In this document: positions 19,897 to 27,766 of the stretch, one piece after another | Layout of the letters: the number at the start of each line of letters is the position of its first letter | Position numbering within the stretch: the stretch's first letter is position 1 | NCBI RefSeq assembly: GCF_016859125.1 | Contig: NZ_CP069338.1 | Span: 6,573,501-6,637,500 of the forward strand | Source of the DNA: Archangium violaceum | Lineage (GTDB): Bacteria > Myxococcota > Myxococcia > Myxococcales > Myxococcaceae | Length of the DNA: 64,000 bases | Reading direction: 5' to 3' | Notes under the pieces: generated by a model | Told to the model about the DNA's origin: nothing | Seen by the model: the letters and a program-made list of their open reading frames with translations, nothing else | The model's database searches: none | Translations under genes and position numbers: made by a program

Positions 19897-20523
19897 TCAC
19901 CCGAGTCGGCCGGGCTCCAGGTTCAGGAAGTGGAACCGCGCGACGTAGCCGGTCCCCTTGGGGCTGCACGCATACAGCCCCGCGGCGGCCATCACCCGGG
20001 GCCCGTCCTCGTGCAGGTGCGCCATGCGGATCTGCGACCAGCGGGTGCCATCCAGGGACGTCTCGACGAGGTAGTCCGCCCCCTCCCGGCGGATGCGGAA
20101 GGACACTTCGTCCACCTCCTGGGGCAGGTCCTGGGTGGCCCAGTCCGAGTAACCCTGGTTCGTCACCACGGAGCCCAGACGGTTGGGGCCATGCGGTTCG
20201 AACTCCACCGAGGTCTTCAGCCAGCAGTCCGGAGAGAAGCGCACCATCAGCCCCGCTTGATCGTACTGGTGCACGGGCTGGAAGCGGACGCGCGTGACGA
20301 GCACGAAGTCCCCCTCCACCTGCGTGTGGAGGAAGTGCCCGTTGTCCACCAGGAAGCCATAGTGCGTGCGCTGCCAGAAGTCCGTCGATGCATCGGGCGT
20401 GAGCTCGAGCCCCGCTCGTCCCGGCTGTACGGACCATCGCTTCGGCTCTTGGAACCAGCGCAGGCGTGGCTCGAGGGAGGGGCTCGTGAAGGACTCGCGA
20501 AGGGGCTGGAAGGAGGAGGTCAT
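19897..20523 (-). CDS. DUF1349 concanavalin A-like domain protein
   Basis: The 208-residue product has the order seen in DUF1349 (regulation-of-enolase-like) proteins: LRWFQEPKRW, TDFWQRTHYGFLVDNGHFL, FVLVTRVRFQPVHQYDQAGLMVR, WLKTSVEFEP and MAAAGLYACSPKGTGYVARF. This is a beta-jelly-roll lectin/glucanase-type fold. No signal peptide is seen, so it is probably cytoplasmic. The start ATG 20523 overlaps the stop of the upstream beta-lactamase-like gene as ATGA, so both are made together. The binding target is unknown. Confidence 0.85.
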   Translation of the reverse strand: MTSSFQPLRESFTSPSLEPRLRWFQEPKRWSVQPGRAGLELTPDASTDFWQRTHYGFLVDNGHFLHTQVEGDFVLVTRVRFQPVHQYDQAGLMVRFSPDCWLKTSVEFEPHGPNRLGSVVTNQGYSDWATQDLPQEVDEVSFRIRREGADYLVETSLDGTRWSQIRMAHLHEDGPRVMAAAGLYACSPKGTGYVARFHFLNLEPGRLG

Positions 20524-21581
20524 GGATTCGAAGGAGGGGAGAGCTGACGAAGGTAGTGGGTGAGGAGCGTGAGCCCGGGTTCCTCGACGGGCACGCGCTG
20601 GCGGAGCGATGCGAGGAAGGACCATGCGTGGTCCGACAGGAGGACGACACCCGTGTCCGCCTCCGCCGAGAAGCCGATGAAGCCCGCGTAGCCGCCCGTC
20701 ACCGCGGAGCGCCACACCAGGGGCCTTCCACCGACGTCGGAGACCTTCCACCCGAGCCCCACGCGTGCGCCTCGGGTCTCCACGCGCGGGAGGTGCGCGA
20801 GCCGCATGGCCCGTCCGAGCCCTGCATCGTGATGACCGAGGTTCGCGTCGAGGAAGCGCAGCAGGTCGGGCACCGTCGCTCGGAGCGCCCCCGCTCCGGG
20901 CAGTGCCGGGAAGCTCCAGCCCGGCACCGTGTTGCCTCGCGCGGAATGGCCGGGAAGCAGGCGCCGCTCCTGTTCCTCGGAGGGACGGAAGGTGGTGTCG
21001 CCGAGCTGCAGGGGCGTGCAGAGGAAGTCCCGCACGGCATGTCCGTAGTTGAGCCGCAGGCGGCGGGAGAGGACGTGGCCGAGCACGCCCATGCCGATGA
21101 CGGACTCGACGTACTTTCGCGGCGGCGGGTGCTGGGGGTGGTAGTTGCGCAGGAAGGCCCCGAACAGCTCCGCGCTGTAGTGGCCGTAGGGGTCGGCCGG
21201 GTTCTGTTGCGGGGTTCGCAGGTTCGGCGGGTCGTACGGCATGCCCGAGGTGTGCGTCGCCAGTTGCTCGAGCGTGATGCGGCCGGCGAGCTTGTCCGGG
21301 AGGAGCGGCAGGGGGAGCAGGTCCTTCAGCGGCATGTCGAGCCTCGCCTCGCCCCGGTCCACCAACAGCGCGAGGAGGGTGCCGGTGAAGACCTGGGTGA
21401 GGAAGCCCAGCTCGTACAGGGAGCTCGTGGCGGGGAGCGGCCCCTCGCGGCGGAGGGCCTGCACGTGGTGCTCTCCGTGGTGCGTGATGCCCACGCACAG
21501 CGAAGCCGAGGGGTACGCGCGCAGGTAGCGCCGGGTGGCGTGGAGGACCGCGTCGGCGGGCGAGTCAGTGGAGGTCCGCAT
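20520..21581 (-). CDS. Beta-lactamase-fold protein with degenerate active site
   Basis: The 353-residue product follows the class C beta-lactamase/serine hydrolase layout (LYELGFLTQVFTGTLLALL, ITLEQLATHTSGMPYD, PGAGALRATVPDLLRFLDANL). The catalytic motifs are altered. The S-x-x-K box that should read like GSVTKVFT is GFLTQVFT, losing both Ser and Lys. The Y-x-N position reads YVES, and the late H/K-x-G box reads RSAVTGG. It has no signal peptide. It is therefore probably a non-hydrolytic binding protein, translationally coupled to the DUF1349 protein. An alternative is an inactive copy on its way to loss, but the frame is intact. Confidence 0.85.
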   Translation of the reverse strand: MRTSTDSPADAVLHATRRYLRAYPSASLCVGITHHGEHHVQALRREGPLPATSSLYELGFLTQVFTGTLLALLVDRGEARLDMPLKDLLPLPLLPDKLAGRITLEQLATHTSGMPYDPPNLRTPQQNPADPYGHYSAELFGAFLRNYHPQHPPPRKYVESVIGMGVLGHVLSRRLRLNYGHAVRDFLCTPLQLGDTTFRPSEEQERRLLPGHSARGNTVPGWSFPALPGAGALRATVPDLLRFLDANLGHHDAGLGRAMRLAHLPRVETRGARVGLGWKVSDVGGRPLVWRSAVTGGYAGFIGFSAEADTGVVLLSDHAWSFLASLRQRVPVEEPGLTLLTHYLRQLSPPSNP

Positions 21582-25309: not shown

Positions 25310-26749
25310 TCAGCAAGCCCGGTTCTCTTCCTCTGCCCTGGAGTTACGGGGCGCCTCCACGGTCAATCCGCCGGGGCGGATGTGCATCGTGTAGGAGTCC
25401 TCCGCGTGCGCCGAGCCTCGCATCTTCACCACGCTGATGGTGCGGGTGAGCTTTCTCTGATGCCGCTCGTAATCGAGTGAGATGATGGCGTCGGGGATGG
25501 TGGAGAGGAACGGTGCCGCCGTGTCGTCTTCGTGGACCGTGAGCGTCTGGGAGAGGAGCGCGCTGCGGCTGTGTTCCCGGACGAGGGCCGCGAAGCCGAC
25601 CATGAACTGCCGGAAGCCCCGCGCGGACGTCGAGTGCGCGATGGAGGAGATGCTGTCGAGCACGATGAGGGACGGCTTGTATTCATCGAGGCTCCTGCGC
25701 AGCTCCACCAGGAGATCCTCGGGGCTGGTGGCCTCGGGGTAGCTGCACTCCACGCGCAGGTTCCCCTTCTTCACGAACTCGTCCAGGGGGAGCCCGAGGC
25801 TCGCGAAGTTGCGCAGGAGGATGTTCCGGGTCTCCTCGAAGCCGTAGTAGGCCACGCGCTCGCCGCGGGACGCACCGGCCCTCGCGTACATGCCGGCCAG
25901 CGTCGTCTTTCCGCTGCCGGAGGGGCCGCGCACCAGCGTGATGGAGTCCCGGAGCCAGCCCCCGTTCATCATCGTGTCCAGCCCCTCGAAGCCGCTCGAG
26001 AAGCGGTTCTCCGCCGGGGGGACGTCGTTGATGCCTTGCAGGCCGAACGGGAACACCATCACCCCCTTGCTGGTGATGGTGCAGGGGTACTCCCCCTTCT
26101 GGTGGGCGCTGCGCCGGTACTTGTGGACCTCGAGCGTCCTTCGCCGCCGCTCGTCGTCCACCAGGTTGCGCAGGACGAGCACCACGTCACACAGGAAGTC
26201 CTCGACACCGAGCGTCGTCCGGGGGCCGTAGTCGTCCGGTGCTTCCGCCGTCACGAGCGCCATCAGCCCGAGCCGCCGGAAGGTGCGGATCAGCTCGAAG
26301 AACTGGTGCCGGAGCCGATCCTCGGGAGGCCTGGGGCTGAACAGGGCGGTGGCCGAGTCCAGGACGATGGCCTGCGCACCGAACTCGCTGACCGCGGCCT
26401 CGATGCGGTGCACCAGGGCGACGACGTCGTAGTCACCCGTGATGATGGTGTTCGCGTCGAGCGGGAGGGTGAGGTCGGTGAAGCGGAGCTTGCCTTCCGC
26501 CACGAGCTCCGAGGTGCCGAAGCCGAGCCCATTTCCGGTGTCGGTGAGATCCGCCGGGGTCTCCTCGACGGAGAACACCATCGTCTTGATTCCCGAACGG
26601 GCGAAGTGACTGGCGAGTTGGAGGGCGAGGATGCTCTTCGCGGCTCCGCTCTTTCCCGTCAGGAGGGTGGTTCGTCCTCGGGGAAGACCTCCGTTCGTGA
26701 TGATGTCGAGCCCGGGTACGCCTGTTGGAACCTTCTGCATCGTGATCAT
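25310..26749 (-). CDS. kaiC: KaiC-type double RecA/KaiC-domain ATPase
   Basis: The 479-residue product has two tandem KaiC domains. Domain 1 has P-loop TGKSGAAKS (31-39), where the usual Gly before Lys is Ala, and catalytic E62-E63. Domain 2 has GPSGSGKT (275-282) and E305-E306. S416-T417 in FLSTIPDAI align with the adjacent Ser/Thr autophosphorylation pair of cyanobacterial KaiC, and VVKMRGSAH matches its C-terminal region. The start ATG overlaps the stop of the Rec-KaiB gene (ATGA), so the two are made together. No kaiA is present. A timer or phosphorylation-switch role is inferred; true circadian function is not shown. Confidence 0.9.
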   Translation of the reverse strand: MITMQKVPTGVPGLDIITNGGLPRGRTTLLTGKSGAAKSILALQLASHFARSGIKTMVFSVEETPADLTDTGNGLGFGTSELVAEGKLRFTDLTLPLDANTIITGDYDVVALVHRIEAAVSEFGAQAIVLDSATALFSPRPPEDRLRHQFFELIRTFRRLGLMALVTAEAPDDYGPRTTLGVEDFLCDVVLVLRNLVDDERRRRTLEVHKYRRSAHQKGEYPCTITSKGVMVFPFGLQGINDVPPAENRFSSGFEGLDTMMNGGWLRDSITLVRGPSGSGKTTLAGMYARAGASRGERVAYYGFEETRNILLRNFASLGLPLDEFVKKGNLRVECSYPEATSPEDLLVELRRSLDEYKPSLIVLDSISSIAHSTSARGFRQFMVGFAALVREHSRSALLSQTLTVHEDDTAAPFLSTIPDAIISLDYERHQRKLTRTISVVKMRGSAHAEDSYTMHIRPGGLTVEAPRNSRAEEENRAC

Positions 26750-27462
26750 CTCTTCCGTGCGACCTGCGCGTCGTTGAGCAGATCGGTGACTGCCTGAAAC
26801 TGGTCCAGGGTTCCCAGGTAATAGGCTCGTGGCGCGGGAAAGCGCTTGACGAGCGTGGGGGTGAAGGCGATCCGGTCCTCGTCGAACGAGGGGGGGCGCT
26901 CCTTCGAGAGGTCCACGACGGCGAGCCGGACCTGCGACCGCTCATAGTTCGCGAGCAGCTTCTCGAGGTTGCGGAGTGCGCGCAGCGAGGCGGGAGAGGC
27001 CTCGCTGATGTAGAGCGTGAGATCGACCCTCACGCCCCGGACACCCTCCTCCTTCTGTTGGGTGCGCTGCAGGTTCTCCTTGGTCCGAACCAGTTCTCGG
27101 TCGCGCACCGGAGCGAGGATTTCATGGATCCTGAAGAGGAACTTATCCACGTCGATGGGCTTGCGGATGACGCGGTAGCCCGCCGTGCCATCGAGGTGGG
27201 AAGCCCCCGTGAGGACGAGGGACTCGCAGTTGAGCAGGCCGCTCTCGGCGGCCTGGGCCAGCATGCGGGCTCCGTCGAAGTCCGGGAGGTTGTAGTCGGT
27301 GATGACGAGGTGGAACCGCTCGCGGCGAAGCGTCTCGAGCCCTTCGCCCGCCGTCGCCGCGACCGTGACGTGGTAGCCGGCCGCCTCGAGCACTTCTTGA
27401 AGTGCCTCGCGGATGTCCGGGTCATCCTCGACGTACATGACTCGTAGGCCCAAAGACGCCAC
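26746..27462 (-). CDS. Response regulator receiver-KaiB fusion protein
   Basis: The 238-residue product joins a CheY-like receiver domain (about 5-118; MYVEDDPD, phospho-acceptor D56 in LVITDYNLPDFDG, K101 in VIRKPI) through a coiled linker to a KaiB thioredoxin-like domain (about 144-231; VDLTLYISEASPASLRALRN, FTPTLVKRFPAPRAYYLG). The GTG at 27462 is preferred over TTG 27474 because GGGAG lies just upstream. The fusion could let a histidine kinase control KaiB binding to the coupled KaiC. No kinase gene is adjacent. Confidence 0.88.
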   Translation of the reverse strand: MASLGLRVMYVEDDPDIREALQEVLEAAGYHVTVAATAGEGLETLRRERFHLVITDYNLPDFDGARMLAQAAESGLLNCESLVLTGASHLDGTAGYRVIRKPIDVDKFLFRIHEILAPVRDRELVRTKENLQRTQQKEEGVRGVRVDLTLYISEASPASLRALRNLEKLLANYERSQVRLAVVDLSKERPPSFDEDRIAFTPTLVKRFPAPRAYYLGTLDQFQAVTDLLNDAQVARKR

Positions 27463-27766
27463 GCTATCTCCCAAGGTGCCATGGCGTTATCAGGCTCCGG
27501 CCTGTTCGCCAGGGGGAAATGGCACCGCGCAGGACTCAACGAGCGAGTCAGCGAGGCTGGCATACCAAAGTTCAGGGGCACTGTTGGCCCAAACGCGGAA
27601 GGAGTCGGCTCGGTGGGGGTGCATGCGTCAAGCCGTTGGCACCCGCCTGTTCGGTAGAGCCCTGTCGTGGGAGCCCTCCATGCCTGGACGAGGGGATTCT
27701 GTGGCGGGGCCCGGGAGCCTTCGCTAGTCAGCGCGGCACCTCGTTCACGCGACAGGAGTGCTGCGC

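Follow-up and report, generated by a model that had tools for sequence, protein, structure and literature searches.

Closest described Kai systems

The role of KaiB and KaiC outside cyanobacteria, and the input that they receive, is a long-standing question. SasA joins a thioredoxin-like KaiC-binding domain to a histidine kinase. The protein described here, Rec-KaiB, resembles SasA in combining a predicted domain of this thioredoxin-like type with a two-component part; it carries, however, a receiver and no kinase domain. Going by the available text of PMC11372060, the closest published case is KaiA3, the receiver-KaiA fusion of the Synechocystis KaiA3B3C3 system: a phosphorylatable receiver is fused to a Kai protein and is encoded beside kaiB and kaiC, and no cognate kinase is known, as for Rec-KaiB. 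KaiA3 differs by its KaiA-like output half and by having KaiB as a separate protein, and KaiA3B3C3 oscillates (PMC11372060).

Non-cyanobacterial KaiB-KaiC systems, such as those of Rhodobacter and Legionella, also consist of a KaiA-less pair, and the available text of PMC10808063 reports a crystal structure of Legionella KaiB in the switched fold and mentions another natural KaiB of that fold. In these systems KaiB stands alone, without a receiver, and the extended C-terminus noted for Rhodobacter KaiC in the accessible part of PMC11372060 is absent from the KaiC described here. Natural examples of a KaiB favouring the KaiC-binding fold are KaiB-TV4 and others for which the switched state is predicted or demonstrated; they are not described as receiver-fused in the text available of PMC10808063. 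The pseudo-receiver of CikA, positioned on fold-switched KaiB, likewise pairs a receiver-fold domain with KaiB, but it does so in trans and has no phosphate acceptor, whereas Rec-KaiB is one chain with an acceptor (available text of PMC12632262 and PMC6378743). A search of the open-licence literature (titles, abstract beginnings and literal phrases) found no published description of a receiver-KaiB fusion.

The rec-kaiB/kaiC gene pair

The window, which is the whole stretch of 64,000 nucleotides that was analysed, contains two overlapping genes on its minus strand. The first, rec-kaiB (26746-27462, 238 aa), encodes a receiver (REC) and a KaiB domain in one protein, and the second, kaiC (25310-26749, 479 aa), a KaiC with two ATPase domains, CI and CII. 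They share the ATGA at 26746-26749, in which the rec-kaiB stop overlaps the kaiC start. The rec-kaiB start codon is a GTG with GGGAG immediately 5' of it; an in-frame TTG at 27474, 12 bases upstream of the GTG, is a possible alternative start. Both Pfam domains of Rec-KaiB lie above their cut-offs in this single ORF (Response_reg, 55.5 bits for a cut-off of 30.2; KaiB, PF07689, 42.9 bits for a cut-off of 27), and the Pfam KaiC ATPase matches the kaiC product in two stretches (299.7 bits). The fusion, the overlap and the two ATPase domains of KaiC, all put forward in the preliminary description, are thus confirmed.

Pfam finds no HisKA or HATPase match in Rec-KaiB, SasA-type kinase domains being absent, and the second domain is a KaiB and not the KaiA C-terminal domain of KaiA3. 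Rec-KaiB scores below the cut-offs of the circadian KaiB equivalogs (NF006798, 34.8 for 110; TIGR02654, 34.3 for 145.3). KaiC narrowly passes the circadian equivalog cut-off of NF006799 (409.8 for 408) and lies under that of TIGR02655 (319.3 for 546.25).

The receiver half

The receiver domain (residues ~6-118; 27109-27447, minus strand) gives a model that is closest to CheY-like receivers (VIA-align, 3crn_B: Z 18.4, rmsd 1.8, 119 residues aligned). Residues D13, D56, T85 and K101 are invariant in the eight Rec-KaiB copies that were aligned out of nine: the acidic pocket, the acceptor Asp, the Thr/Ser and the Lys of REC domains are all present. D56 (codon at 27295-27297, minus strand), which had been singled out together with K101 before any comparison, is the expected phosphate acceptor. 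In the full-length AlphaFold2 model, a long predicted helix (residues 105-138; 27049-27150, minus strand) continues from receiver helix 5 into the linker, with low confidence at residues 131-142. The pTM of this model is 0.54 and the placement of the domains is therefore not fixed by it. Compared with the PDB, the full-length model retrieves receivers only among the 50 matches listed. In BFVD, the best matches are receivers and thioredoxins.

The origin of the receiver was sought in the receiver genes that lie beside stand-alone kaiB genes, a derivation left unsupported by the 30-33% identity found over ~110 residues. The closest receiver in the same genome is a lone REC (G000 794517-794867), at 45%.

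The presence of an intact receiver in a conserved, KaiA-less REC-KaiB/KaiC module makes control of Rec-KaiB by a putative histidine kinase the natural reading of the sequence. A conserved adjacent kinase was considered and rejected, as no histidine kinase is found among the ten neighbouring genes scanned: two in the window (zinc dehydrogenase, serine hydrolase), four at the G080 locus (TetR, hydrolase, exonuclease, globin), two at the G045 locus (a protein with weak Ig/PKD matches, serine hydrolase) and two at the G046 locus (HSP20 and DUF1501 proteins). At the remaining rec-kaiB loci, neighbours were compared by BLAST only. To note, the serine hydrolase gene (beta-lactamase family) of the window (20520-21581, minus strand) is located ~3.7 kb from kaiC with opposite-strand genes in between, and that of G045 (L033) lies 13 bases after kaiC.

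The KaiB half

In T. elongatus KaiB, the double substitution G89A/D91R shifts the protein to its KaiC-binding fold (PMC8059507, PMC6378743); as reported in the available text of PMC8059507, this variant is mainly in the switched fold and displays a fast binding phase. The equivalent positions in the KaiB domain of Rec-KaiB (residues ~146-231; 26770-27027, minus strand) were placed with a PDB alignment ending at residue 86 (V of EKV) and with stand-alone KaiBs: L228-L229-N230 (26773-26781, minus strand) corresponds to G89-L90-D91. The G89 position is a Leu in all eight aligned Rec-KaiBs and a Gly in 23 of 29 stand-alone KaiBs, a hand-picked subset of the fetched loci. At the D91 position, Asn is found three times and Ser, Glu, Asp, His and Arg once each, so that Asp occurs in 1/8 fusions vs 17/29 stand-alone proteins. 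From the alignment, Rec-KaiB appears to lack the residues that hold the ground-state fold of a metamorphic KaiB. The Gly is missing from every aligned fusion, yet six of the 29 stand-alone KaiBs also lack it, and its loss is therefore not special to the fusion. Furthermore, the conserved KaiB residues R74 and R75 are replaced in all eight Rec-KaiBs and D79 is kept in two, and the KaiB surface is therefore changed, which speaks against an unaltered mode of binding.

Both models give the KaiB half a beta-alpha-beta-alpha-beta-beta-alpha order, the thioredoxin-like order of fold-switched KaiB. Among the 50 matches listed, the closest solved structures are fold-switched KaiBs (5jwr_D, Z 13.9; 5jwo_B, 13.3), followed by Legionella KaiB (12.9) and by Rhodobacter KaiB bound to KaiC (12.4); thioredoxins are found from Z 12.1 downward, the N-terminal domain of SasA (SasA-N, 1t4y) scores 10.5, and ground-state KaiB entries do not occur among these 50. 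AlphaFold2 is considered a weak judge of fold-switching proteins in the text available of PMC11344769.

KaiC and its relatives

The KaiC of the window was compared within a set of 38 sequences: 7 cognates of Rec-KaiB, 9 KaiCs encoded beside a stand-alone kaiB, 21 not linked to kaiB and one broken fragment from G007. A CI loop (residues 100-113; 26411-26452, minus strand) aligns with the approximate region of the KaiB-docking B-loop. It is present in 7/7 cognates and in 9/9 KaiCs beside a stand-alone kaiB, and is gapped in 21/21 unlinked paralogues. The Ser-Thr pair is found in 7/7 cognates vs 0/21 unlinked paralogues. In the window it is S416-T417 (25499-25504, minus strand), as initially proposed, and aligns with the phospho-pair of S. 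elongatus KaiC (S431-T432 in the numbering of PMC11832031). Both catalytic Glu pairs are also kept. The CI Walker A reads GKSGAAKS (residues 32-39; 26633-26656, minus strand): the AKS noticed earlier as a departure from GKS/T is correct to the letter, but it is an ordinary variant, AKS occurring in 5/7 cognates and AKT in 3/9 of the other KaiB-linked KaiCs compared. AKS as a mark of a dead CI domain is rejected on the same counts.

The available text of PMC11832031 states that myxobacterial KaiCs miss the B-loop and resemble the A-loop, that kaiB is rare among myxobacteria, and that both phospho-sites occur in nine of the myxobacterial KaiCs. Unlike in that general statement, the loop is present in the KaiB-linked class of KaiCs among the sequences compared. 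In a FastTree phylogeny of 37 KaiCs, from which the G007 fragment was dropped, the cognates form a single clade (support 1.0), itself nested in a clade of KaiB-linked sequences (0.994); support is 0.795 at the node that unites the cognates with L038, L039, L059 and L064. With 479 residues instead of 518-519 in cyanobacterial KaiCs, the protein ends in residues that no longer match the latter, and a KaiA-binding C-terminal region is not recognisable in the alignment.

Other kaiC genes of the genome

The genome (12.68 Mb, single contig) contains one KaiB match and six kaiC genes, five further PF06745 matches being short and weak. KaiA was not detected, as the preliminary description had it: PF07688 has no match in the 12.68 Mb, while the control in S. 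elongatus is positive. According to the available text of PMC3164672, almost all non-cyanobacterial kaiC genes are near signalling genes. The other five kaiC genes of this genome all adjoin two-component genes. Four of them (L166, L167, L168, L169) share four bases with the REC gene that lies downstream, ATGA in three cases and GTGA in one, and their REC partners are three lone RECs and one REC-HisKA-HATPase. The fifth, a triple-domain kaiC (L170 4115-6328, minus strand, 737 aa), precedes a gene for a GAF-GAF histidine kinase; G043, G045 and G047 also contain KaiC-like ORFs, of 739-741 aa. The rec-kaiB/kaiC pair is the only one in the genome with a KaiB, and the only one in which the receiver is located upstream and fused to KaiB.

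Distribution and conservation

The preliminary description had proposed to look for receiver-KaiB fusions in other genomes. The profile used to detect receivers was derived from the Rec-KaiB family. Nineteen of the 195 Myxococcota genomes searched have a KaiB-like match, and REC-KaiB occurs in nine of these (9/195), the other ten having no receiver in the KaiB frame. Fused copies are found in G000 (the genome of the window), G043, G045, G046, G047, G080, G083 and G137; in the metagenome-assembled genome G007, KaiB follows a receiver across a frame break, and a KaiC of 65% identity lies on a separate short contig, also with frame breaks. None was found in the Pseudomonadota sample, where 35 of 398 genomes have a KaiB-like match (54 matches): the seven matches in open frames of at least 200 aa were inspected and lack an in-frame receiver, and the remaining 47 lie in frames of insufficient length for both domains. 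None is fused either in the class sample (13 of 385 genomes, 17 matches), which shares some genomes with the former. Phage records yield three matches, to the receiver part only, and among the 20 matches listed of 140 matched plasmid records, none covers 80% of the query. A contig scan with one narrow pattern retrieves two Rec-KaiB loci (L044, L045) and two short matches (L046, L047) in genomes without a KaiB match. The fusion may occur in phyla beyond those sampled.

The ATGA overlap of rec-kaiB and kaiC is present in 7 Myxococcota genomes. Flanking genes vary between sub-groups of these loci, so the pair has been maintained in differing genomic surroundings. When the window, G045 and G047 are compared with one another, dN/dS is 0.02-0.05 for the receiver, 0.28-0.29 for KaiB and 0.24-0.26 for KaiC; the values are 0.47, 0.24 and 0.35 for the G046/G043 pair, and 0.23, 0.37 and 0.32 for G080/G083. 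The corresponding values for the window and G046, which is more distant, are 0.67, 0.52 and 0.30, at a dS of 0.9-1.05. With the same 4-base overlap in 7 genomes and dN/dS below 1 in every pair compared, the fusion is more than a chance event.

In G044, a genome of the same genus, the alignable parts of the region share 75-95% identity with G046. Insertions and deletions are seen, one of which, at L141 ~8375, has removed rec-kaiB and the first ~407 codons of kaiC; what is left of kaiC is a 3' stub corresponding to residues 408-474. This is a natural joint loss of rec-kaiB and of most of kaiC. Conversely, G137, which belongs to another family and is 96% complete, possesses a Rec-KaiB, while a protein search finds no match to this KaiC; its PF06745 matches are four in number, all partial, and two exceed the cut-off.

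Possible mode of action

Since all eight aligned copies have another residue at a fold-switch position of cyanobacterial KaiB and KaiA is missing, the "clock-like" character attributed to the module at first is unsupported, and the earlier interpretation as a whole holds in part. With its slow step seemingly gone and no KaiA, a clock is unlikely here, and KaiB-KaiC may act as a signal-controlled switch rather than a daily clock. Our tentative reading, the probability of which we place just short of even, is that of a response regulator with a pre-switched KaiB output, in which phospho-D56 gates the co-made KaiC. Rec-KaiB would be an atypical response regulator whose KaiB output is already in the KaiC-binding thioredoxin-like fold. 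An unlinked histidine kinase would phosphorylate D56, and the resulting change, relayed via the helix-5 linker, would affect docking of the KaiB half on the CI loop, either its occurrence or its cooperativity. Docking, in turn, would set the ATPase and the Ser416/Thr417 state of KaiC. Because KaiB need not refold, the hours-long cyanobacterial delay would be removed and the module would work as a signal-gated switch.

This switch reading is favoured by the fusion and the overlap in 7 genomes, the invariant receiver quartet, the Leu at G89 and the switched-fold model, as well as by the docking loop and Ser-Thr pair of the cognates, their monophyly, the joint loss in G044 and the other kaiC genes beside two-component genes. 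It is weakened by G137, by the R74/R75/D79 changes, by a Gly loss that is not fusion-specific, by the limits of AlphaFold2 on fold-switchers, by the absence of a kinase among the neighbours scanned and by the pTM of the full-length model. As the CikA pseudo-receiver binds switched KaiB in trans, an intramolecular receiver-KaiB contact that forms or dissolves upon phosphorylation is by analogy a concrete possibility. A fuller proposal is doubtful: mutation would have abolished the slow KaiB fold-switch in this lineage, and a covalently attached phospho-receiver would have taken its place by alternately masking and exposing a KaiB that is permanently switched, so that a bacterium without KaiA would possess a KaiC switch gated by phosphorelay.

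The main rival, itself unlikely, reverses the signal in a SasA-like manner: the KaiB half would sense KaiC, the nucleotide or phosphorylation state of which would recruit and cluster Rec-KaiB and change receiver phosphorylation or kinase access, making the receiver a KaiC output. The predicted constant thioredoxin-like fold would suit this role, resembling SasA-N at a Z level with thioredoxins, as would the four kaiC genes that overlap a downstream REC. Yet the best match in both sequence and structure is KaiB and not SasA-N, and the receiver is here upstream of KaiB and in the same chain. Less probable is a KaiB half that no longer serves KaiC and acts as a thioredoxin-like output for another partner, kaiC being a historical or loose companion: such a protein would fit the Rec-KaiB of G137 and the residues lost at R74, R75 and mostly D79, but not an overlap maintained in 7 genomes despite differing flanks, a pair lost together in G044 and a docking loop kept in every cognate. 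A true timer or oscillator, in which Rec-KaiB and KaiC cycle daily or hourglass-like with the phase set by receiver input, is highly improbable: KaiC retains the docking loop, the Ser-Thr pair and both catalytic Glu pairs, and KaiA3 works in a real oscillator (available text of PMC11372060), but KaiA is absent from the genome, the fold-switch Gly is replaced in all eight aligned Rec-KaiBs and the KaiA-binding region of KaiC is not recognisable, even though myxobacterial KaiCs generally resemble the A-loop in the accessible part of PMC11832031.

If the fuller proposal above is true, the locus represents a KaiBC core rewired from a clock to a signal-response device. The locus would, moreover, let one ask in a natural setting which step turns KaiBC into a clock, because the proposed slow step, KaiB refolding, seems gone while the phospho-sites and docking loop of KaiC are kept. 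With its phosphorylation handle, its altered fold-switch residues and the KaiC made along with it, this natural KaiB puts the question of KaiB/KaiC function and input outside cyanobacteria within direct experimental reach.

Receiver proteins beside stand-alone kaiB genes

In the myxobacterial genomes G109 and G128, a protein with two receivers and a helical-looking C-terminal domain is encoded just upstream of kaiB-kaiC (L038 6594-8009 and L039 8416-9687, both plus strand). Its C-terminus aligns, at 25-26% identity, with single-receiver proteins of 288-292 aa (L149 602-1468 and L152 593-1471, both plus strand), the genes of which overlap kaiB in two Pseudomonadota genomes. A profile of these possible KaiA3 C-termini (A4) matches no KaiA in the PDB and nothing in the genome of the window, so the KaiA3 naming of both protein sets is a lead only. 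These proteins may be KaiA3 relatives, a finding that would then be new for myxobacteria. In several Pseudomonadota loci (L074, L077, L080, L146 and others), kaiB genes are found in adjacent pairs.
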